From: Labrys wisconsinensis
GTDB lineage: Bacteria > Pseudomonadota > Alphaproteobacteria > Rhizobiales > Labraceae
Direction: 5' to 3'
Length of the DNA: 64,000 bases
Assembly: GCF_030814995.1 (NCBI RefSeq)
Contig: NZ_JAUSVX010000025.1
Coordinates: 1-64,000 of the forward strand
A program made the position numbers and the translations under genes. The notes under the pieces were generated by a model. That model was not told the origin of the DNA. It did no database searches and saw nothing but the letters and a program-made list of their open reading frames with translations. Positions 55,178-63,613 of the stretch are shown piece after piece. Every line of letters begins with the position of its first letter. The stretch's first letter is position 1.

Positions 55178-55204
55178 TATAGTCTATTGATTTTATAGAC
55201 TATA
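55178..55204. promoter_or_regulatory. Perfect 10-bp-arm palindrome upstream of the sulfur operon
   Basis: TATAGTCTAT (55178-55187) and ATAGACTATA (55195-55204) flank the 7-base loop TGATTTT. It stands out as A/T-rich, 49 bases before the reductase start, and overlaps where the promoter would be. It could be the operator of a LysR-type or other sulfur-starvation regulator. Confidence 0.6.
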
Positions 55205-55252: not shown

Positions 55253-55834
55253 ATGAGCGAGCTTGCCATCGTCGGGGTCTCCGGCAGCGTGACGCGGCCC
55301 TCGCGCACCACCGCGCTGGTGCGGGCGGTGCTGGACCGGCTCGAGGCGCGCAGCGGCCTGACGCCGCGGCTGATCGAATTGGTCGATGCGGCGCCGCATC
55401 TGTTCTCCGCCCTCACCTGGGACCGGGTGGCGGGCGAGGCGCGCGCCATCGTCCGCGCGGTGGAGCAGGCCGACCTCCTGGTGGTCGGCACGCCCGTCTA
55501 CCGCGCCTCCTATACCGGCGCGCTGAAGCACCTGTTCGACCTCGTCCACCACGCCACCTTCGCCGGCAAGCCGGTGCTGCTCGCCGCCACCGGCGGCACG
55601 CCGCTGCACGGTCTCGTCACCGAGCACCAGCTCCGGCCCCTGTTCGGCTTCCTCAACGCCCTGACGCTGCCGACCACGATCTACGCCGTCGAGGCCGACT
55701 TCGACGGACACCGCCTCGCCAGCCCCAGGATCGCCGAGCGCATCGAGCGGGCGGTGGGCGAGGCGCTGGAGCAGGTCGGCCGGCGGCCGGGCGCGGAGGA
55801 AGCCGACCGGCGCCCGGTCCTCGCCGCCGGCTGA
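55253..55834 (+). CDS. msuE: NADPH-dependent FMN reductase, MsuE-type
   Basis: This is a 193-residue flavodoxin-fold reductase that supplies reduced FMN to two-component monooxygenases. It has VGVSGSVTRPSRTTALV for FMN phosphate binding, LLVVGTPVYRASYTGALKH near 80 and VLLAATGG at about 113, the MsuE/SsuE pattern. It is the first gene of the sulfur operon, 36 bases before the sfnG homologue, so its FMNH2 goes to that monooxygenase. The C-terminal tail is rich in Arg, Pro and Glu and not conserved. Confidence 0.9.
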   Translation: MSELAIVGVSGSVTRPSRTTALVRAVLDRLEARSGLTPRLIELVDAAPHLFSALTWDRVAGEARAIVRAVEQADLLVVGTPVYRASYTGALKHLFDLVHHATFAGKPVLLAATGGTPLHGLVTEHQLRPLFGFLNALTLPTTIYAVEADFDGHRLASPRIAERIERAVGEALEQVGRRPGAEEADRRPVLAAG

Positions 55835-55870
55835 GGCCTTTCCCAACCAACGCCACACCAGAGAGCCGCC

Positions 55871-56986
55871 ATGACCCTGACCAACGCCCTGTCCCCTGCC
55901 CGCGAGCCGGTCAAGTTCGCCTATTGGGTGCCCAACGTCTCGGGCGGGCTGGTGATCAGCAAGATCGAGCAGCGCACCGGGTGGGATATCGACTACAACA
56001 GGAAGCTGGCTGAGATCGCCGAGGCCAGCGGCTTCGACTATGCGCTGAGCCAGATCCGCTTCACCGCCGGCTATGGCGCCGAGTTCCAGCACGAGCCGGT
56101 CGCCTTCAGCCAGGCCCTGCTCGCGGCCACAACACGCCTCAAGGTGATTGCCGCGCTGCTGCCCGGGCCGTGGAACCCGGCGGTGGCGGCCAAGCAGATC
56201 GCCACGATCAACAACCTCTATGGCGGGCGCGTCGCGGTCAACGTGGTCAGCGGCTGGTTCCGCGGCGAGTTCGCCGCCATCGGCGAGCCCTGGCTCGACC
56301 ATGACGAGCGCTACCGGCGCTCGGAGGAGTTCATCCGGGCGCTGCGCGGCATCTGGGCCGAGGACAACTTCACCTTCCGCGGCGATTTCTATCGCTTCAG
56401 CAATTACAGCCTGAAGCCCAAGCCCATCGACCCGCAGCCGGAGGTGTTCCAGGGCGGCTCCTCGCGCGCCGCCCGCGACATGGCCTCGCGCGTGTCGGAC
56501 TGGTATTTCACCAACGGCAACACGCCCGAGGAGATCGCCAAGCAGGTCGACGACATCCGGGCCAAGGCGGCGGCGAACAACCATTCGGTCCGGATCGGCG
56601 TCAACGCCTTCGCCATCGCCCGCGAAACCGAGGCCGAGGCGCGGCGGGTGCTGGCCGAGATCATCGACAAGGCCGATCCGGAGGCGGTCAACGCCTTCGG
56701 CCACGAGGTCAAGAATGCCGGCAAGGCTTCCCCGGAAGGCCAGGGCAACTGGGCCAGGTCCGGCTTCGAGGACCTCGTCCAGTACAATGACGGCTTCCGC
56801 TCCAACCTGATCGGCACGCCCGAGCAGATCGCCGAGCGCATCCTCGCCCTCAAGGCCGCCGGCGCCGACCTGATCCTGCTCGGCTTCCTGCATTTCCAGG
56901 AGGAGGTCGAGCATTTCGGCAAGCACGTCATCCCGCTGGTGCGCCAGCTCGAGGCAGAGCGCCCGCTCGCCGTCGCGGCCGAGTGA
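55871..56986 (+). CDS. sfnG: Dimethylsulfone monooxygenase SfnG homologue
   Basis: This is a 371-residue bacterial-luciferase-like TIM-barrel flavin monooxygenase that in Pseudomonas oxidises dimethylsulfone to methanesulfinate using FMNH2. The sequence PVKFAYWVPNVSGGLVISK then FDYALSQIRFTAGYGAE, VIAALLPGPWNPAVAAKQ and NVVSGWFRGEFAAIG reproduces the SfnG pattern throughout. The C-terminal FLHFQEEVEHFGKHVIP is also typical. The upstream reductase and downstream transporter and sfnB indicate organosulfur scavenging. A GTG overlapping its stop codon lies just before the ATPase gene. Confidence 0.92.
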   Translation: MTLTNALSPAREPVKFAYWVPNVSGGLVISKIEQRTGWDIDYNRKLAEIAEASGFDYALSQIRFTAGYGAEFQHEPVAFSQALLAATTRLKVIAALLPGPWNPAVAAKQIATINNLYGGRVAVNVVSGWFRGEFAAIGEPWLDHDERYRRSEEFIRALRGIWAEDNFTFRGDFYRFSNYSLKPKPIDPQPEVFQGGSSRAARDMASRVSDWYFTNGNTPEEIAKQVDDIRAKAAANNHSVRIGVNAFAIARETEAEARRVLAEIIDKADPEAVNAFGHEVKNAGKASPEGQGNWARSGFEDLVQYNDGFRSNLIGTPEQIAERILALKAAGADLILLGFLHFQEEVEHFGKHVIPLVRQLEAERPLAVAAE

Positions 56987-56994
56987 GGCCAGCC

Positions 56995-57948
56995 ATGATC
57001 GAGGCCCTGGGACCTCTCGGCATGCAATGGGAGATGGTCGTGGCCGGGGCCGCCTTCGGCGTCGCGGCGGATGATTTCGCCTCGCCCGCCGCCGAGGTTC
57101 CGACGGCTGCCGCGCCGGGCGGAGAGCCGGCTCTGGCCCTGGACGGCATCAGCCTCGCCTTCGGCGGCGTCGCCGCCCTCACCGGGGTCGACCTCGCCGT
57201 GCAGCCCGGCGAGATCCGTGCCGTCATCGGCCCGAACGGCGCCGGCAAGAGCTCGCTGATCAACGTCATCAGCGGCATCTACCGTCCCGATCGCGGCCGG
57301 GTGCGCCTCGGCGGCCGCAGCTTCGCCGCCGTGCCGACCGAGCGGCTCGCCCGGCTCGGCATTGCCCGCACCTTCCAGAACCTCGCCCTGTTCCCCGGCC
57401 TCAGCGTGCGCGACAATGTCGCCGCCGGCCGCGTCGCCGCCGGCCGGTCCGGCGTGGTCGGCCAGGTGCTGGGCCTGCCCCGAGCCCGGCGCGAGCGCGC
57501 CGACGCCCTCGAGCGCTCGCTCGGCGTGATCGAGTTCCTGCATCTCGATGGCGTGCGCGGCCGGCCGGTCGGCACCCTGCCCTACGGCCTGCAGAAGCGG
57601 GTCGAGCTCGCCCGCGCCCTGGTGGCCGAGCCGAGGATCCTGCTGCTCGACGAGCCCATGGCCGGCATGACCGCGACGGAGAAACGCGAGATGAGCGGCT
57701 TCGTGCGCGCGGCGCGCGAGCGCTTCGGCACCACCGTGATCCTGATCGAGCACGACATCGGCGTGGTGATGGGCCTCTCCGACCGCGTCGCCGTGCTCGA
57801 CCACGGCCGCAAGATCGCCGACGGCACGCCGGACGCGGTGCGCGCCGACCCGGCGGTGATCGACGCCTATCTCGGCGTCGCCCATCAAGACGACGAGGAG
57901 GGCGACACTCGGGACGACGCCCGCAACGACGCGGGGAGGGCGGCGTGA
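56995..57948 (+). CDS. Branched-chain-type ABC transporter ATPase (LivG-like) with N-terminal extension
   Basis: This is a 317-residue ATPase. The ABC core starts at LALDGISLAFGGVAALTGV after about 45 extra residues, an Ala-rich extension without recognised fold. Walker A GPNGAGKSS, the LivG-specific ARLGIARTFQNLALFPGL, the signature LPYGLQKRVELARA (LPYG in place of LSGG, normal for LivG), Walker B ILLLDEPMAGM and the H-loop IEHDIGVVMGL are intact. The start at 56995 sits eight bases after a GAGG site and inside the operon. It would pair with LivF at 61538. The ligand is probably an organosulfur compound, inferred from context. Confidence 0.9.
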   Translation: MIEALGPLGMQWEMVVAGAAFGVAADDFASPAAEVPTAAAPGGEPALALDGISLAFGGVAALTGVDLAVQPGEIRAVIGPNGAGKSSLINVISGIYRPDRGRVRLGGRSFAAVPTERLARLGIARTFQNLALFPGLSVRDNVAAGRVAAGRSGVVGQVLGLPRARRERADALERSLGVIEFLHLDGVRGRPVGTLPYGLQKRVELARALVAEPRILLLDEPMAGMTATEKREMSGFVRAARERFGTTVILIEHDIGVVMGLSDRVAVLDHGRKIADGTPDAVRADPAVIDAYLGVAHQDDEEGDTRDDARNDAGRAA

Positions 57949-58844
57949 TCGGCGACATCGACTTCGCCTTCTTCACCGAGGTCCTGGTCGGCGGCCTGCT
58001 CTCCGGCGTGATGTACTCGCTCGTCGCCATCGGCTTCGTGCTGATCTACAAGACCTCGGGCGTCCTCAACTTCGCCCAGGGCGCCATGCTGCTGTTCGCG
58101 GCGCTGACCTTCGTCAGCCTGGTGGAGCGGGGCGTGCCCTTCGCGCTCGCCCTGGCGCTTACGTCGGCGGCCATGGTGCTGCTCGGCATCGCCATCGAGC
58201 GCACGGTGCTGCGGCCGCTGGTCAACAAGCCGCCGATCACCCTGTTCATGGCGACGCTCGGGCTCTCCTACGTCATCGAGGGCGCGGCGCAACTCCTCTG
58301 GGGCACGCAGGTCCACGGCCTCGACCTCGGCATCGACGACACGCCGCTGGAGATCTCGGGCGTGTTCGTCTCCACCTTCGACCTCTTCGCCGCCGGGGTG
58401 GCGGCGGTCATGGTCGGCCTGCTCACCGCCTTCTTCCGCTTCACCCGCACCGGCCTCGCCTTCCGGGCGGTGGCGGACGACCCGTTCGCCGCCTTCGCCG
58501 TCGGCCTGCGCCTGCCGCGCATCTGGGCGACGGTGTGGACCGCCGCCGGCGTGGTCGCCCTGGTCGCCGGCCTGCTCTGGGGCGCGCGGCTCGGCGTGCA
58601 GTTCTCGCTCTCCCTGGTGGTGCTGAAGGCCTTGCCCGTGCTGGTGCTCGGCGGCTTCGATTCCATCCTCGGCGCCATCGTCGGCGGCCTGATCATCGGC
58701 GCCTCGGAGAAGCTCGCCGAGGTCTATGTCGGCCCGTTCTTCGGCGGCGGCATCGAGAGCTGGTTCGCCTATGTGGTGGCGCTCGCCTTCCTGCTCATCC
58801 GCCCGGCCGGCCTGTTCGGCCAGAAACGCGTCGAGAGGGCCTGA
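57945..58844 (+). CDS. Branched-chain-type ABC transporter permease (LivH-like)
   Basis: This is a 299-residue integral membrane protein whose GTG start overlaps the LivG stop codon. The first helix region is VLVGGLLSGVMYSLVAIGFVL and the family motif SGVLNFAQGAMLLFAALTF follows. Later segments FRAVADDPFAAFAVGL and PVLVLGGFDSILGAIVGGL match LivH. Paired with LivM it forms the channel of the HAAT importer. No unusual features. Confidence 0.92.
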   Translation: MIGDIDFAFFTEVLVGGLLSGVMYSLVAIGFVLIYKTSGVLNFAQGAMLLFAALTFVSLVERGVPFALALALTSAAMVLLGIAIERTVLRPLVNKPPITLFMATLGLSYVIEGAAQLLWGTQVHGLDLGIDDTPLEISGVFVSTFDLFAAGVAAVMVGLLTAFFRFTRTGLAFRAVADDPFAAFAVGLRLPRIWATVWTAAGVVALVAGLLWGARLGVQFSLSLVVLKALPVLVLGGFDSILGAIVGGLIIGASEKLAEVYVGPFFGGGIESWFAYVVALAFLLIRPAGLFGQKRVERA

Positions 58845-58847
58845 GCG

Positions 58848-59876
58848 ATGGCGAGCCGCGATGCCGCGAGTCCCCTCCGCCGCCTGCCCGCCTGGCTCGG
58901 CCCGGCGCTGCTGCTCGCCCTCGCCTATGGCGTGGTGCCGCTGGTCGGCTCGAGCTATCTCTTCGAGGCGATCCTGATCCCCTTCCTCGCCCTGTCGCTC
59001 GCCGCGCTCGGCCTCAACCTGCTCACCGGCTATGCCGGCCAGCTCTCGCTGGGGACGGCGGCGTTCATGGCGGTCGGCGCCTTCGCCGCCTACAACGTCA
59101 ACCTGCGGGTCGAGGGCCTGCCGCTCCTCGCCAGCCTCGTCCTCGCCGGCCTGGCGGCCGCGGCGATCGGCCTCGTCTTCGGCCTGCCGAGCCTGCGCCT
59201 GCGCGGCTTCTACCTCGCCGTCTCGACGCTGGCGGCACAGTTCTTCGTGCAATGGGCGCTGACCAAGTTCGGCTGGTTCTCCAACGACAATCCCTCCGGC
59301 GTCATCGACGCCCCGCCGCTGACCCTGTTCGGCCTCGCCTTCGACGGCCCGGTCGGGCGCTATCTCTTCGCCCTCACCGTGGTGGTGGCGCTCACCGCCT
59401 TCGCCCTGCGCCTGGTCGGCACGCCGACCGGCCACAACTTCATCGCCGTGCGCGACAACGAGCTCGCGGCACGGGTGATCGGCGTGCCGGTGCTCCGCAC
59501 CAAGCTGCTCGCCTTCGCCGTCTCCTCCTTCATCATCGGCGTCGCCGGCGTGCTCTGGGCCTTCGCCTATCTCCGCACGGTCGAGCCGGCCGGCTTCAAT
59601 CTCGACCGGTCCTTCCAGATCCTGTTCATCATCATCATCGGCGGCCTCGCCTCGATCCGCGGCGCCTTCCTCGGCGCGGCGCTGATCGTGGTGTTCCCGC
59701 TGATCCTCTCGCGGCTCGGCAGCGCCGTCTTCGGCGGCCTGTTCGATTCCGGCGTGCTCGACATGAGCCAGCGCATCGTGCTCGGCGCGCTGATCATCCT
59801 GTTCCTGATCGCCGAGCCGGACGGCCTCGCCGCCCTGTGGGACCGGCTGGGCAGACGCCTGTCACGAAGTCCCTAA
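58848..59876 (+). CDS. Branched-chain-type ABC transporter permease (LivM-like)
   Basis: This is a 342-residue permease, eight or more helices. It carries LAALGLNLLTGYAGQLSLG, the LivM hallmark, PTGHNFIAVRDNELAARVIG, and IIIIGGLASIRGAFLGAAL near the C-terminus. The start lies three bases after the LivH stop codon. The C-terminal RLGRRLSRSP tail is basic and cytosolic. Confidence 0.92.
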   Translation: MASRDAASPLRRLPAWLGPALLLALAYGVVPLVGSSYLFEAILIPFLALSLAALGLNLLTGYAGQLSLGTAAFMAVGAFAAYNVNLRVEGLPLLASLVLAGLAAAAIGLVFGLPSLRLRGFYLAVSTLAAQFFVQWALTKFGWFSNDNPSGVIDAPPLTLFGLAFDGPVGRYLFALTVVVALTAFALRLVGTPTGHNFIAVRDNELAARVIGVPVLRTKLLAFAVSSFIIGVAGVLWAFAYLRTVEPAGFNLDRSFQILFIIIIGGLASIRGAFLGAALIVVFPLILSRLGSAVFGGLFDSGVLDMSQRIVLGALIILFLIAEPDGLAALWDRLGRRLSRSP

Positions 59877-59925
59877 CTCTTTGAAAAATCGAAACTTCAC
59901 CCCGATCAACGCCCGGAGTCCGTCC

Positions 59926-61269
59926 ATGCCGATCCTGTCGTCCCTGCGAGCCGCCGCCCTCGGCGCCTCGCTCGCCCTCGCCGGGGCCCTGCCGGCCCTG
60001 TCGCCGGCGCTCGCCGACGAGCAGTTCTTCCCGCTGCAGAGCTACCGCGTCGGCCCCTATGCCGCCGGCGGCACCGGCTTCTTCGGCGGCTTCATCGACT
60101 ATCTCAACCTGATCAACATCCGCGACGGCGGCGTCAACGGCGTCAAGCTGACCTGGGACGAGGGCGAGACCCAGTACGAGGTCGAGCGCGGCGTCGAAGT
60201 CTACGAGCGCCTGAAGAGCCGGCCGGGCATCGCCGCCTGGAACCCGCTCTCGGTCGGCATCGCCTATGCCATGATCGACCGCATCACGCAGGACAAGGTG
60301 CCGCTGATCACCATCAACCACGGCCGCACCGATTCCACCGACGGGCGCGTCTTCCCCTACGTGTTCCCGCTGCTGCTGAACCCCTACAGCGAGACTTCCG
60401 GCATCATCAACTACATCGCCGGCAAGGTCGGCGGCCTCGACAATCTCAAGGGCCGGAAGATCGTGGTGCTCTACCACGGCTCGCCCTACGGCAAGGAAAC
60501 CATCCCGATCTACGAGCTGCTCGCCAAGACATACGGCTTCGACGTGCAGCAGATCGAGGTGCCGCATCCCGGCAACGAGCAGCAGTCGCAATGGCTGACC
60601 ATCCGCCGGGCCAAGCCCGACTATGTCGTGCTGCGCGGCTGGGGCGTGATGAACCCGGTCGCCCTCAAGACGGCGCAGAAGGTCGGCTTTCCCGCCGACC
60701 ATATCGTCGGCAACGTCTGGTCCAATTCCGAGGAGGACGTGATCCCGGCCGGCGACGCCGCCAAGGGCTACACCGCCATCACCACCCAGGCCTCCGGCAA
60801 CACCTACCCCGTCGTGCAGGAGATCGTGAAGACGGTCTACGGCGCCGGCAAGGGCAACCTGGAGGACAAGAAGCGCATCGGCTCGGTCTACCACAATCTC
60901 GGCATCGTCAACGGCATCCTCAATGTCGAGGCGATCCGCATCGCCCAGGAGCGCTTCGGCCACCGCACCCTCACCGGCGACGAGGTGCGCTGGGGCTTCG
61001 AGCACCTGAAGCTCGATCCCGCCCGCGTCGAGGCGCTGGGCGCCAAGGACCTGTTCCACTCCATCAACGTCACCTGGGACAACCACGAGGGCGACGGCTA
61101 CGTCACCTTCCAGCAGTGGGACGGGTCGAAGTGGAAGGTGGTGTCGGACTGGATCGCACCGGACTGGGCCCTGCTGCGCCCGATCATCGAAAAATCGTCC
61201 GAAGCCTACGCCGCCCAGCACGGCATCAAGCTGCGCACCGCGGCGGATGCGGAAGGGGTGACGAACTGA
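59926..61269 (+). CDS. Branched-chain-type ABC substrate-binding protein
   Basis: This is a 447-residue periplasmic type I solute-binding protein. A signal peptide LAGALPALSPALADE is cleaved, followed by FFPLQSYRVGPYAAGGTGFF. This N-terminus is characteristic of the subgroup annotated as ABC transporter substrate-binding protein and linked to unusual ligands; classical LivK begins with a different IKIGVAGP strand. Further blocks are KGRKIVVLYHGSPYGKE and NPVALKTAQKVGFPADH. Ligand identity is unknown; being within an sfn operon makes a sulfone or sulfonate plausible. TTG 59881 is a weaker alternative start. Element B follows. Confidence 0.88.
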   Translation: MPILSSLRAAALGASLALAGALPALSPALADEQFFPLQSYRVGPYAAGGTGFFGGFIDYLNLINIRDGGVNGVKLTWDEGETQYEVERGVEVYERLKSRPGIAAWNPLSVGIAYAMIDRITQDKVPLITINHGRTDSTDGRVFPYVFPLLLNPYSETSGIINYIAGKVGGLDNLKGRKIVVLYHGSPYGKETIPIYELLAKTYGFDVQQIEVPHPGNEQQSQWLTIRRAKPDYVVLRGWGVMNPVALKTAQKVGFPADHIVGNVWSNSEEDVIPAGDAAKGYTAITTQASGNTYPVVQEIVKTVYGAGKGNLEDKKRIGSVYHNLGIVNGILNVEAIRIAQERFGHRTLTGDEVRWGFEHLKLDPARVEALGAKDLFHSINVTWDNHEGDGYVTFQQWDGSKWKVVSDWIAPDWALLRPIIEKSSEAYAAQHGIKLRTAADAEGVTN

Positions 61270-61300
61270 GGATATCTCGCCGCGGGGGTTCAGTCGCCGG

Positions 61301-61485
61301 GCACGCGAACCTCTCCGCGTCATGGGCGGACTTGATCCGCCCATCCACGCGACCACCGGCAGCGCCATGGAAGGCTCCGGCCGTCGTCACGTGAACACGG
61401 CAATCGTCGCGGTCGCCGCGCGATCGAATTCGATCGCGCTGGGATGGACGGATCAAGTCCGTCCATGACGGCGAGGTTCTCGTGC
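61301..61485. repeat. Three-hairpin palindromic repeat (copy B) after the ABC binding-protein gene
   Basis: ATGGGCGGA-CTTGA-TCCGCCCAT lies at 61322-61344. A 22-bp perfect palindrome with core TCGAATTCGA lies at 61418-61439. ATGGACGGA-TCAAG-TCCGTCCAT lies at 61444-61466. Outer arms GCACGCGAACCTC and GAGGTTCTCGTGC extend the symmetry to 61301-61485. It shares the architecture of copy A, including the GAATTC centre. Confidence 0.85.
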
Positions 61486-61537
61486 ACGACCCACAGGCCG
61501 CCAGCGTCTCGGTCCTTCCTGCCCTCAGGAGCATCCC

Positions 61538-62332
61538 ATGCCCAACGACACCCCCCTCCTCACCGTCGACGGCATCGAGGCGACCTACAACCACGCGATC
61601 GTCGCGCTGCACGGCGTCAGCCTGACGGTGCGCCAGGGCGAGATCCGGGCGCTGCTCGGGGCGAACGGCGCGGGCAAGACCACGACGCTGAAGGCCGTCT
61701 CCAACCTGCTGCCGGCAGAGCGTGGCAAGGTCACCGCCGGGCGCATCCGGTTCGACGGCCACGACGTGGCGCGCACCGGCCCGGCCGACCTCGTCCGGCT
61801 CGGCCTGGCGCAGGTGCTGGAAGGCCGGCACTGCTTCCGATCGCTCTCCGTCGAGGAGAACCTCGTGACCGGCGGGCTGGGCCGCGGCTCCGGCCGGGCC
61901 GACATCGCCCGCGACCTCGACCGCGTCTACGCCCTGTTCCCGCGCCTCCGGGACAAGCGCGCCACCGCAGCGGGGCTCGCCTCAGGCGGCGAGCAGCAGA
62001 TGACCGCGATCGGCCGGGCCCTGATGTCGCGCCCCCGGCTGCTCGTGCTCGACGAGCCCTCGATGGGCCTTGCGCCGCTGGTGGTGCAGGGCATCTTCCG
62101 GGCGCTCGTGGCGCTCAACCGCGCGGAGGGCCTGTCGATCCTGGTGGCGGAGCAGAACTCCACCATCGCCCTGCGCCACGCCCACCGCGCCACCGTGCTT
62201 GAGAACGGCGCCGCCGTGCTCGAAGGCAGCGCGGCGGAGCTGCGCGCACGCGACGACATCAAGACCTTCTACCTCGGCGAGGGCTCGATCGCGGGCGCCC
62301 GGCTGCGCGCGGTCGAGCCGACGCTGCCCTGA
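61538..62332 (+). CDS. Branched-chain-type ABC transporter ATPase (LivF-like)
   Basis: This is a 264-residue ATPase beginning LLTVDGIEATYNHAIVALHG. Walker A is LGANGAGKTTTLKAVS, followed by the LivF-specific GLAQVLEGRHCF segment, the signature LASGGEQQMTAIGRALM, Walker B LLVLDEPSMGLAPL and the H-loop region AEQNSTIALRHA with Asn in place of the usual His (a LivF feature). It pairs with the LivG-like gene 3.6 kb upstream. It is separated from the binding-protein gene by copy B of the repeat. Confidence 0.92.
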   Translation: MPNDTPLLTVDGIEATYNHAIVALHGVSLTVRQGEIRALLGANGAGKTTTLKAVSNLLPAERGKVTAGRIRFDGHDVARTGPADLVRLGLAQVLEGRHCFRSLSVEENLVTGGLGRGSGRADIARDLDRVYALFPRLRDKRATAAGLASGGEQQMTAIGRALMSRPRLLVLDEPSMGLAPLVVQGIFRALVALNRAEGLSILVAEQNSTIALRHAHRATVLENGAAVLEGSAAELRARDDIKTFYLGEGSIAGARLRAVEPTLP

Positions 62333-62356
62333 CACGCTGACCCCTGGAGAGACCAC

Positions 62357-63613
62357 ATGACCATCGCAAGCACCGCAGATCCCGCCACCTCGACCCCGCT
62401 CGCCGGCGTGCCCGGCGTGCCGCGCCCGACCCGGCCGGCGCATGTGATCGCCGACGACGCCGAGGCCCTTGCCGTCGCCGAGCGCCTGGCAAAAGGCTTC
62501 GCCGAGGGCGCCTCGGAGCGCGACCGCACCCGCCGCTGGCCGGTGGAGGAGCTCGACACCTTCTCCCAGAGCGGGCTCTGGTCGATCAACGTGCCCAGGC
62601 GCTTCGGCGGGCCGGAGGTCTCCTACGTCACGCTGTCGCGGGTGATCGCCATCGTCTCCGCCGCCGATCCCTCGCTCGGCCAGATCCCGCAGAACCATCT
62701 CGGCGTGGTCGCCGCCATCCGCACCGTCTCGGACGAGGCGCAGCAGAAACTGCTGTTCGCCGAGGTGCTGCACGGCACCCGCTTCGGCAACGCCTTCTCC
62801 GAATTCGGCTCCAAGCGCGCCGCCGACTTCGAGACCCGGTTCGCCGATGCCGGCGACCACGTCGTCGTCACCGGCCGCAAGTTCTATTCCAGCGGCGCGC
62901 TGCTCGCCCATCTCGTGCCGATCGTCGCGCTCGACGGCGAGGGCCGCGCCTGGTACGCCGTCGCCGAGCGCGACGCGCCCGGCCTCACCGTCATCGACGA
63001 CTGGTCGAGCTTCGGCCAGAAGACGACGCTGAGCGGCACGGTGGTGCTCGACGGCGTCAAGGTGCCCAAGACCCATCTCGTGCCCGGCTACAAGGGCTAT
63101 GACCGGCCGACCGCGGACGGCGCCATCTTCCAGATCATCCAGGCGGCGGTGGATACCGGCATCGCCAAGGCGGCGATCGAGGAGACCATCGCCTTCGTGC
63201 GCACCGGCTCGCGCCCCTGGATCGACAGCGGCCTCGAGCACGCCTGGCAGGATCCCTACACGATCCAGGCCGTCGGCGACCTGACGCTGCGCCTGCACGC
63301 CGCCGAGGCGCTGCTCGATGCCGCCGGCCGGGCGGTCGACCGCGCCGTGGCCGAGCCGAACGCCGAGACGGTGGCGCAGGCCCAGATCGCCGTGGCCGAG
63401 GCCAAGGTGCTCAGCACCGAGATCGCCATCGCCGCCACCAACAAGCTGTTCGAGCTCGCCGGCACCCGCTCCACCCTGGCCGAGCACAATCTCGACCGCC
63501 ACTGGCGCAACGCCCGCACCCACACCCTGCACGATCCGGTGCGCTGGAAATACGCCATTCTCGGCAACTACGCCCTCAACGGCGTCAAGCCGCCGCTGCA
63601 CGCCTGGAGCTGA
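62357..63613 (+). CDS. sfnB: SfnB-type acyl-CoA-dehydrogenase-fold sulfur acquisition oxidoreductase
   Basis: This is a 418-residue flavoprotein of the acyl-CoA dehydrogenase fold. Its opening region PAHVIADDAEALAVAERLA then FSQSGLWSINVPRRFGGPEV and AADPSLGQIPQNHLGVV is the SfnB hallmark. The C-terminal part contains ATNKLFELAGTRSTLAEHNLDRHWRNARTH in parts. SfnB-like enzymes are co-regulated with SfnG under sulfate limitation; exact substrate unknown, possibly desulfonation or sulfoxide oxidation. It ends the operon before a bidirectional hairpin. Confidence 0.92.
   Translation: MTIASTADPATSTPLAGVPGVPRPTRPAHVIADDAEALAVAERLAKGFAEGASERDRTRRWPVEELDTFSQSGLWSINVPRRFGGPEVSYVTLSRVIAIVSAADPSLGQIPQNHLGVVAAIRTVSDEAQQKLLFAEVLHGTRFGNAFSEFGSKRAADFETRFADAGDHVVVTGRKFYSSGALLAHLVPIVALDGEGRAWYAVAERDAPGLTVIDDWSSFGQKTTLSGTVVLDGVKVPKTHLVPGYKGYDRPTADGAIFQIIQAAVDTGIAKAAIEETIAFVRTGSRPWIDSGLEHAWQDPYTIQAVGDLTLRLHAAEALLDAAGRAVDRAVAEPNAETVAQAQIAVAEAKVLSTEIAIAATNKLFELAGTRSTLAEHNLDRHWRNARTHTLHDPVRWKYAILGNYALNGVKPPLHAWS

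Follow-up and report, generated by a model that had tools for sequence, protein, structure and literature searches.

In the sfn/msu system of Pseudomonas, as set out in excerpts of a 2021 study (PMC8234197), SfnG converts dimethyl sulfone into methanesulfinate, MsuC and MsuD carry the product on to methanesulfonate and then to sulfite, and MsuE supplies the reduced flavin mononucleotide (FMN). A figure legend in the same source places predicted ATP-binding cassette (ABC) transporters within the sfn operon of P. putida and describes the dimethyl sulfone transporters as uncharacterized. In P. putida KT2440, PP_2765 is SfnG and PP_2772 the MsuC counterpart (PMC13352529, excerpts), and SfnB is called uncharacterized in the excerpts of these works. 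Here, we describe an eight-gene operon in a 64,000-nucleotide stretch of the 8.93-Mb genome of Labrys wisconsinensis (contig NZ_JAUSVX010000025.1, positions 1 to 64,000; hereafter the window), in which homologues of MsuE, SfnG and SfnB enclose a complete ABC importer of the HAAT (Liv) type. The operon is real and conserved, and organosulfur uptake by its importer is likely. Like the Pseudomonas system, the locus combines SfnG, an MsuE-type reductase and SfnB with ABC transporter genes—those of P. putida being known to us as predictions from the legend of PMC8234197—but the window cassette forms a single unit led by msuE, with no msuC, msuD or sfnR among its eight genes. Two importer families also invite comparison. 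LivFGHMJ/K importers share the five-part layout and the domain families of the window importer, whereas SsuABC and TauABC, which take up organosulfur compounds under sulfate limitation—a role akin to the one proposed below—belong to a different importer family from the window system with its two PF02653 permeases and PF13458 binding protein.

The eight genes all lie on the + strand between positions 55253 and 63613. The first, msuE (55253-55834; TIGR03566, 228.6 bits against a cut-off of 212.5; PF03358), encodes an FMN reductase that would supply reduced FMN. It is followed by sfnG (55871-56986), encoding an FMNH2-dependent dimethylsulfone monooxygenase that covers positions 1-350 of the 350 in TIGR04021 (599.7 bits, cut-off 382.95) and matches the solved dimethylsulfone monooxygenase 8t0u with an E value of 3.9e-194. 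The importer comprises a LivG-type ABC ATPase with a BCA_ABC_TP_C tail (56983-57948; PF00005 and PF12399), a LivH-type (57945-58844; PF02653) and a LivM-type permease (58848-59876; PF02653), the HAAT-type periplasmic binding protein P0006 (447 amino acids, 59926-61269; PF13458), with a signal peptide judged by eye, and a LivF-type ABC ATPase (61538-62332; PF00005)—the full domain set of a HAAT importer, with PF00005 and PF02653 each found twice. The last gene, sfnB (62357-63613; TIGR04022, 620.3 bits, cut-off 430.9), encodes an acyl-CoA dehydrogenase-type oxidoreductase related to DszC and MsuC, with structure matches to DszC (3e-49) and methanesulfinate monooxygenase (4e-43). Overlaps of 4 bases join sfnG to the first ATPase gene and the latter to the first permease gene; the other genes are spaced by 3 bases (before the second permease gene) to 49 bases (before the binding-protein gene, its start set by choice at ATG 59926 within a listed open reading frame beginning at TTG 59881). 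The sole long gap, of 268 bases, separates the binding-protein gene from the last ATPase gene (61270-61537), and short inverted repeats were seen in it by eye: ggcggacttgatccgcc and one further copy resembling it. Family models and coordinates thus bear out an earlier note on this DNA, which had described co-directional msuE, sfnG, HAAT importer and sfnB homologues with short gaps; the cassette itself stands, and its size of seven genes is corrected to eight, the sum of that note's own gene list.

Because the importer is partnered with the pathway genes for SfnG, MsuE and SfnB, its ligand can be sought among the compounds of that pathway. On this basis, we consider with good confidence that the window encodes an organosulfur importer. 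With more reserve, we favor a sulfur-starvation importer that takes up dimethyl sulfone, or a small organosulfur compound close to it, and so feeds SfnG. That the ligand should be dimethyl sulfone itself is a tentative proposal.

To gauge how far the cassette is conserved, named genomes were scanned with a profile of close binding proteins, which returned 407 relatives, and the best 80 loci were kept; within these, genes were recognized at identity floors of 30% for msuE, 45% for livG, 50% for livM and livF, 55% for livH, and 60% for sfnG, sfnB and the binding protein. The five-gene importer was complete in 78 of the 80, the remaining two being cut by contig ends. Gene by gene, the binding protein, the second permease and the last ATPase were found in all 80 loci, the first permease in 79, the first ATPase and sfnB in 78 each, sfnG in 74 and msuE in 65. 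The gene order of the window recurred in 41 loci; 23 had msuE last, 10 had no msuE called and 6 were without sfnG. An arrangement of eight genes found in identical order in 41 of 80 loci goes beyond chance, and the genome search that the earlier note had proposed thereby speaks for the cassette, with sfnG adjoining the importer in 74 loci. Some reading frames in the loci fetched around binding proteins are unsure, since genes there were called with a home-made rule on third-position G+C. Among the six loci without sfnG, three begin inside or at the importer (L121, L185 and L195) and a fourth holds only about 1.7 kb upstream (L143). The other two, both from Agrobacterium vitis, contain either two NtaA/DmoA-like genes (at 82% and 51% identity to the reference), with SfnB-like genes (57% and 49%) downstream (L172), or no reference gene beside the importer (L174). 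The binding protein of L143 is 87% identical and lies on a contig filed under a Verrucomicrobiota metagenome-assembled genome, which may reflect transfer or misbinning. Some relative of the binding protein also occurs in 188 plasmid records; in the two with inspected annotation, from Rhizobium leguminosarum and Agrobacterium fabrum, all eight genes stand in the window order. On the R. leguminosarum plasmid pRlvC (L013), the cassette is flanked by quorum-sensing genes and nodO/nod genes. Across 86 loci, the distances among SfnG proteins and among binding proteins covary (Mantel r 0.88, permutation maximum 0.47; r 0.80 without the second importer locus of the window's genome, L015)—a pattern that fits co-adaptation, and plain co-inheritance as well.

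The linkage between importer and sfnG was then measured in three overlapping genome samples, covering the order (297 genomes), the phylum (398) and the genus around genome G603 (149), which we read as Pseudomonas. A close importer was defined by a binding protein at least 65% identical, and linkage by an sfnG within 8 kb. In the order sample, sfnG was present in 20 genomes and a close binding protein in 10; all 10 carried sfnG (within 8 kb in 8 cases), which was present in 10 of the 287 other genomes. The phylum sample gave a similar picture: 21 genomes with sfnG and 9 with a close binding protein, all with sfnG and 7 within 8 kb. The genus sample held sfnG in 68 genomes and a close binding protein in 13; of these 13, 5 have sfnG within 8 kb, 6 have it farther off or on a different contig, and 2 yielded none. 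Importer and sfnG are closely linked in the order to which the window belongs, but only loosely in the genus taken to be Pseudomonas. Pooling the samples gave 27 distinct genomes with a close importer: 17 have sfnG within 8 kb, 8 have it farther off or on a different contig, and in the remaining 2 no sfnG was found. The occurrence of the importer apart from sfnG and sfnB, which the earlier note had named as evidence against its reading, is hence partly seen. Its contrast with Pseudomonas, whose sfn monooxygenase genes it took to have no importer of this kind beside them, is not supported, given the 5 of 13 adjoining pairs and the predicted transporters in the legend of PMC8234197, and the idea that the association is absent from Pseudomonas was dropped on the strength of those 5 genomes and of the context of one locus. 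In the latter (L211), the importer sits between sfnG and a group encoding SsuD, a DszC/MsuC-like protein and a sigma-54 activator; the window, for its part, has a palindromic dyad. From this context, we infer that the KT2440 genes between PP_2765 and PP_2772 include this importer.

The fetched loci fall into two context groups. In the first, the importer stands beside SfnG, NtaA/DmoA-like enzymes, or SfnB and SfnB-like proteins; in the second, it stands beside a FadD-type and usually also a PaaK-type coenzyme A (CoA) ligase, with matches below the curated cut-offs. Trees of the binding proteins follow this division. Among 58 proteins, 26 CoA-ligase rows lie on one side of a single branch (support 86), and the two-way context label needs one change over 55 rows; among 71, 25 such rows are split off by one branch (98 in a Shimodaira–Hasegawa-like approximate likelihood-ratio test, SH-aLRT), again with one change, over 61 rows. 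Importer-only rows stand outside these counts—3 in the smaller tree and 10 in the larger, where they fall within the sfnG-type clade—and two loci with an FAD/NAD-type protein as sole called neighbour (L036 and L039) were counted as sulfur-context in both. Duplicates (L025 and L029) and short binding-protein hits were excluded from the trees; the larger one gained 14 further rows from 13 loci, L215 not being among them, and L090 was dropped as a long branch. Judged from these sequences, the family splits by context, into partners of C–S-bond flavin monooxygenases and partners of CoA ligases. Related importers beside FadD-type and usually PaaK-type ligases were noted in L035, L037, L038, L040, L042-L045, L047-L050 and L077-L090, and their substrate is probably an organic acid.

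That more distant members of the family, 26 of the 58 rows, adjoin CoA ligases gives some ground for supposing that the window importer, too, has a cargo unconnected with sulfur, either an organic acid or an amino acid, and shares an operon with sfnG for convenience. The same supposition draws on seven loci (L204-L210) in which a 40% NtaA-like gene in L208 was the sole organosulfur reference gene found next to an importer, and on a protein of about 360 residues encoded ahead of the importer in 13 of the 17 loci inspected. In L211 (13411-14496), where this protein was scanned, its match to the AMP-binding family is confined to the initial part; a fragment of this kind was also noted in L051, L052, L204-L210, L212, L214 and L215, and may have been left over from an ancestral CoA ligase. 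The one-change division of the tree argues against a non-sulfur cargo, which we regard as distinctly improbable.

Within the sulfur-context group, the sfnG-type clade has a sister clade beside NtaA/DmoA-like enzymes, assigned by a match above the TIGR03860 cut-off in L015 and by similarity to L015 in the others, and beside SfnB-like proteins. L015 (G000:C5:361986-368410) lies in the window's own genome, where it pairs a second importer (binding protein 54% identical) with a second, diverged SfnG (53%) and the NtaA/DmoA-family enzyme, and has a weaker dyad upstream. Importers of the NtaA type also adjoin sfnG (L216 and L217). Together with a binding protein longer than LivJ (447 against 367 amino acids), the neighbours of the sister clade and the pairing in L015 are what one would expect if the cargo were a larger sulfone, sulfoxide or thioether, cleaved by SfnG or by a neighbouring NtaA/DmoA-family monooxygenase; yet the window SfnG shares 77-80% identity with its counterparts in L056-L061, which argues for the same small substrate, and we consider a larger compound unlikely. 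In L033 (3275-8236), an sfnG-type importer without an adjoining sfnG, which lies elsewhere in that genome, was found near a molybdopterin oxidoreductase and two FAD/Fe-S reductases. The oxidoreductase matches the dimethyl sulfoxide/selenate reductase family best, at 285 bits under a cut-off of 777.7, and a role of this importer in serving a dimethyl sulfone reductase stays a lead.

Compared with the Liv proteins, the window importer scores below the family cut-offs throughout (238 against 362 bits for LivG, 74 against 379 for LivH, 104 against 366 for LivM and 217 against 441 for LivF), placing it outside LivFGHMJ/K proper by score. Its binding protein matched no NCBIfam family at E 0.001, and the profile of its close relatives gave no useful alignment with LivJ in hhalign (E 0.069). 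A wider profile aligned with LivJ and LivK at about 17% identity—a weak alignment, used tentatively. By these comparisons, the protein appears only distantly related to LivJ and LivK, in agreement with the earlier view that it is not a classical LivK. In the same weak alignment, the position of the glutamate in the GPEG stretch of LivJ is occupied by Ile or Val in the two sulfur groups, whereas the CoA-ligase group has Trp there—a further point against the non-sulfur cargo. Among solved structures, the one nearest in sequence to the window protein is 4ru0 (E 4.2e-144), annotated as a branched-chain amino acid binding protein and presumably from the P. fluorescens group. It nearly matches the protein of L041 (930 bits), a member of the sister clade beside NtaA/DmoA-like enzymes, and is placed through that protein, being itself absent from the tree; a literature search for 4RU0 listed no title concerning it. 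An AlphaFold model of the window binding protein, built from 24 similar rows, was set aside at a mean predicted local distance difference test (pLDDT) score of 56.5.

Upstream of the operon, a perfect inverted repeat, TATAGTCTAT-N7-ATAGACTATA (10+10 bases with a 7-base spacer; 55178-55204, no strand assigned), is separated from msuE by 48 bases and is a candidate operator. At no more than 7 mismatches in 20, a dyad was found upstream of 49 of 74 cassettes, against about 0.6% of 4029 control windows (320 bases each, drawn from these loci) and 4% of upstream regions after shuffling. Among the fetched operons, whose lineages partly overlap the named loci, 14 of the 29 not of the CoA-ligase kind (three importer-only loci included) reached this threshold, against none of 25 CoA-ligase operons (Mann-Whitney P 0.0018, relatedness not corrected), which again speaks against a non-sulfur cargo. 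Within the window's own genome, an 18-base pattern at up to 3 mismatches occurs at four places, and its reversed control at none: the window, a locus with NtaA-like, SsuA-like and SfnB-like genes (L022), a site before an OsmF-family gene, and L024, where a scan for cassette genes found none and other genes were not scanned. A shorter core at 2 mismatches marks 49 sites, 7 of which have a luciferase-like monooxygenase hit no more than 3.5 kb away (1.05 expected, P 8e-5); at 0-1 mismatch, the figure is 3 of 8 (0.17 expected). Leaving out the window's site, the counts become 6 of 48 (0.99 expected, P 4e-4) and 2 of 7 (0.14 expected). Of the 28 hits, which stem from a search with TIGR03565, 2 exceed the cut-off; the neighbours of the dyad are therefore not all proven organosulfur enzymes. 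A perfect dyad core was also observed upstream of an SfnB-SfnB-SsuD group in this genome (L197, G000:C7:6727-6745), and a site around 9656 in L198 precedes genes for a 2-oxoglutarate (2OG)-Fe(II) oxygenase and an O-acetylhomoserine sulfhydrylase.

Taken as a working model, scarcity of sulfate or cysteine would lead a regulator at the dyad to switch on a single transcript. The periplasmic protein would then capture a small organosulfur molecule, the likeliest being dimethyl sulfone or a closely related sulfone or sulfoxide, for import by the two permeases and two ATPases, as their families suggest. MsuE would make reduced FMN, SfnG, like its known relatives, would cleave dimethyl sulfone to methanesulfinate, the further oxidation to methanesulfonate may fall to SfnB, and SsuD, encoded elsewhere in the genome, would release sulfite. 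Of the pathway enzymes sought in it, the genome encodes SfnG twice and SsuD twice above the cut-off. About as near to DszC as to MsuC, SfnB is a candidate for the middle step, particularly in view of two loci (L026 and L091) in which SsuD, SfnG, importer, SfnB and MsuE stand together on one strand. That grouping, like the two SsuD genes of the genome, would also suit an importer for a charged intermediate rather than the sulfone: methanesulfinate and methanesulfonate are anions in need of a carrier. Sulfonates, however, usually enter through SsuABC or TauABC, and sfnG is the steadier partner (74 of 80 loci), SsuD adjoining the importer in only some fetched loci; we accordingly think it improbable that the importer is devoted to such an intermediate.

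Several observations weigh against an uptake system for dimethyl sulfone or a close compound that feeds SfnG. Being a small molecule without charge, dimethyl sulfone may pass through membranes with no need of a transporter. Close importers stand apart from sfnG in 8 of the 13 genus-sample genomes, including the 2 in which it was not found, and 10 of the 27 pooled genomes lack an adjoining sfnG (four have it on another contig, at unknown distance). Conversely, the close importer is absent from 10 of 20 sfnG genomes in the order sample and 57 of 68 in the genus sample; SfnG therefore does not require it. Neither the Mantel permutation nor the dyad counts remove shared ancestry, and even the loose dyad threshold was missed by 25 of the 74 cassettes and 15 of the 29 fetched operons. 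Moreover, the 49 core sites compare with 44 for the reversed control, so there is no overall enrichment of the motif, and a genome-wide enrichment was rejected. The dedicated organosulfur uptake-and-oxidation route that the earlier note had suggested thus keeps its organosulfur part, which the gene neighbourhood supports, whereas the 8 of 13 importers located away from sfnG speak against strict dedication.

Beyond the window, we advance a broader proposal with some hesitation, rating it slightly below an even chance: that this HAAT branch is a class of organosulfur importers, with a dimethyl sulfone clade beside SfnG, a sister clade for other C–S compounds beside NtaA/DmoA-like enzymes (4ru0 included), and a Hyphomicrobiales dyad marking a sulfur-starvation regulon. 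With respect to novelty, the predicted ABC transporters in the P. putida legend of PMC8234197—the nearest mention of the importer that was found—together with the context of L211 mean that the co-occurrence of sfn genes and importer was partly visible before. The earlier suggestion of a possibly undescribed route accordingly narrows to the importer family, its breadth, its context split and the dyad, for which no description was found among the titles and passages matched in the openly licensed literature, an absence that is weak evidence. The importer constitutes a concrete, widely conserved candidate for the uncharacterized dimethyl sulfone transporter, occurring both on a nod-gene plasmid of R. 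leguminosarum and in an msu/sfn-like locus of the genus taken to be Pseudomonas. If the proposed function is correct, annotations of these proteins as branched-chain amino acid transporters, seen in the records of branch members, would be corrected; if the branch as a whole imports organosulfur compounds, the missing dimethyl sulfone transporter would be supplied. A correct assignment would also reveal how bacteria of soil and roots acquire oxidized methyl sulfur.

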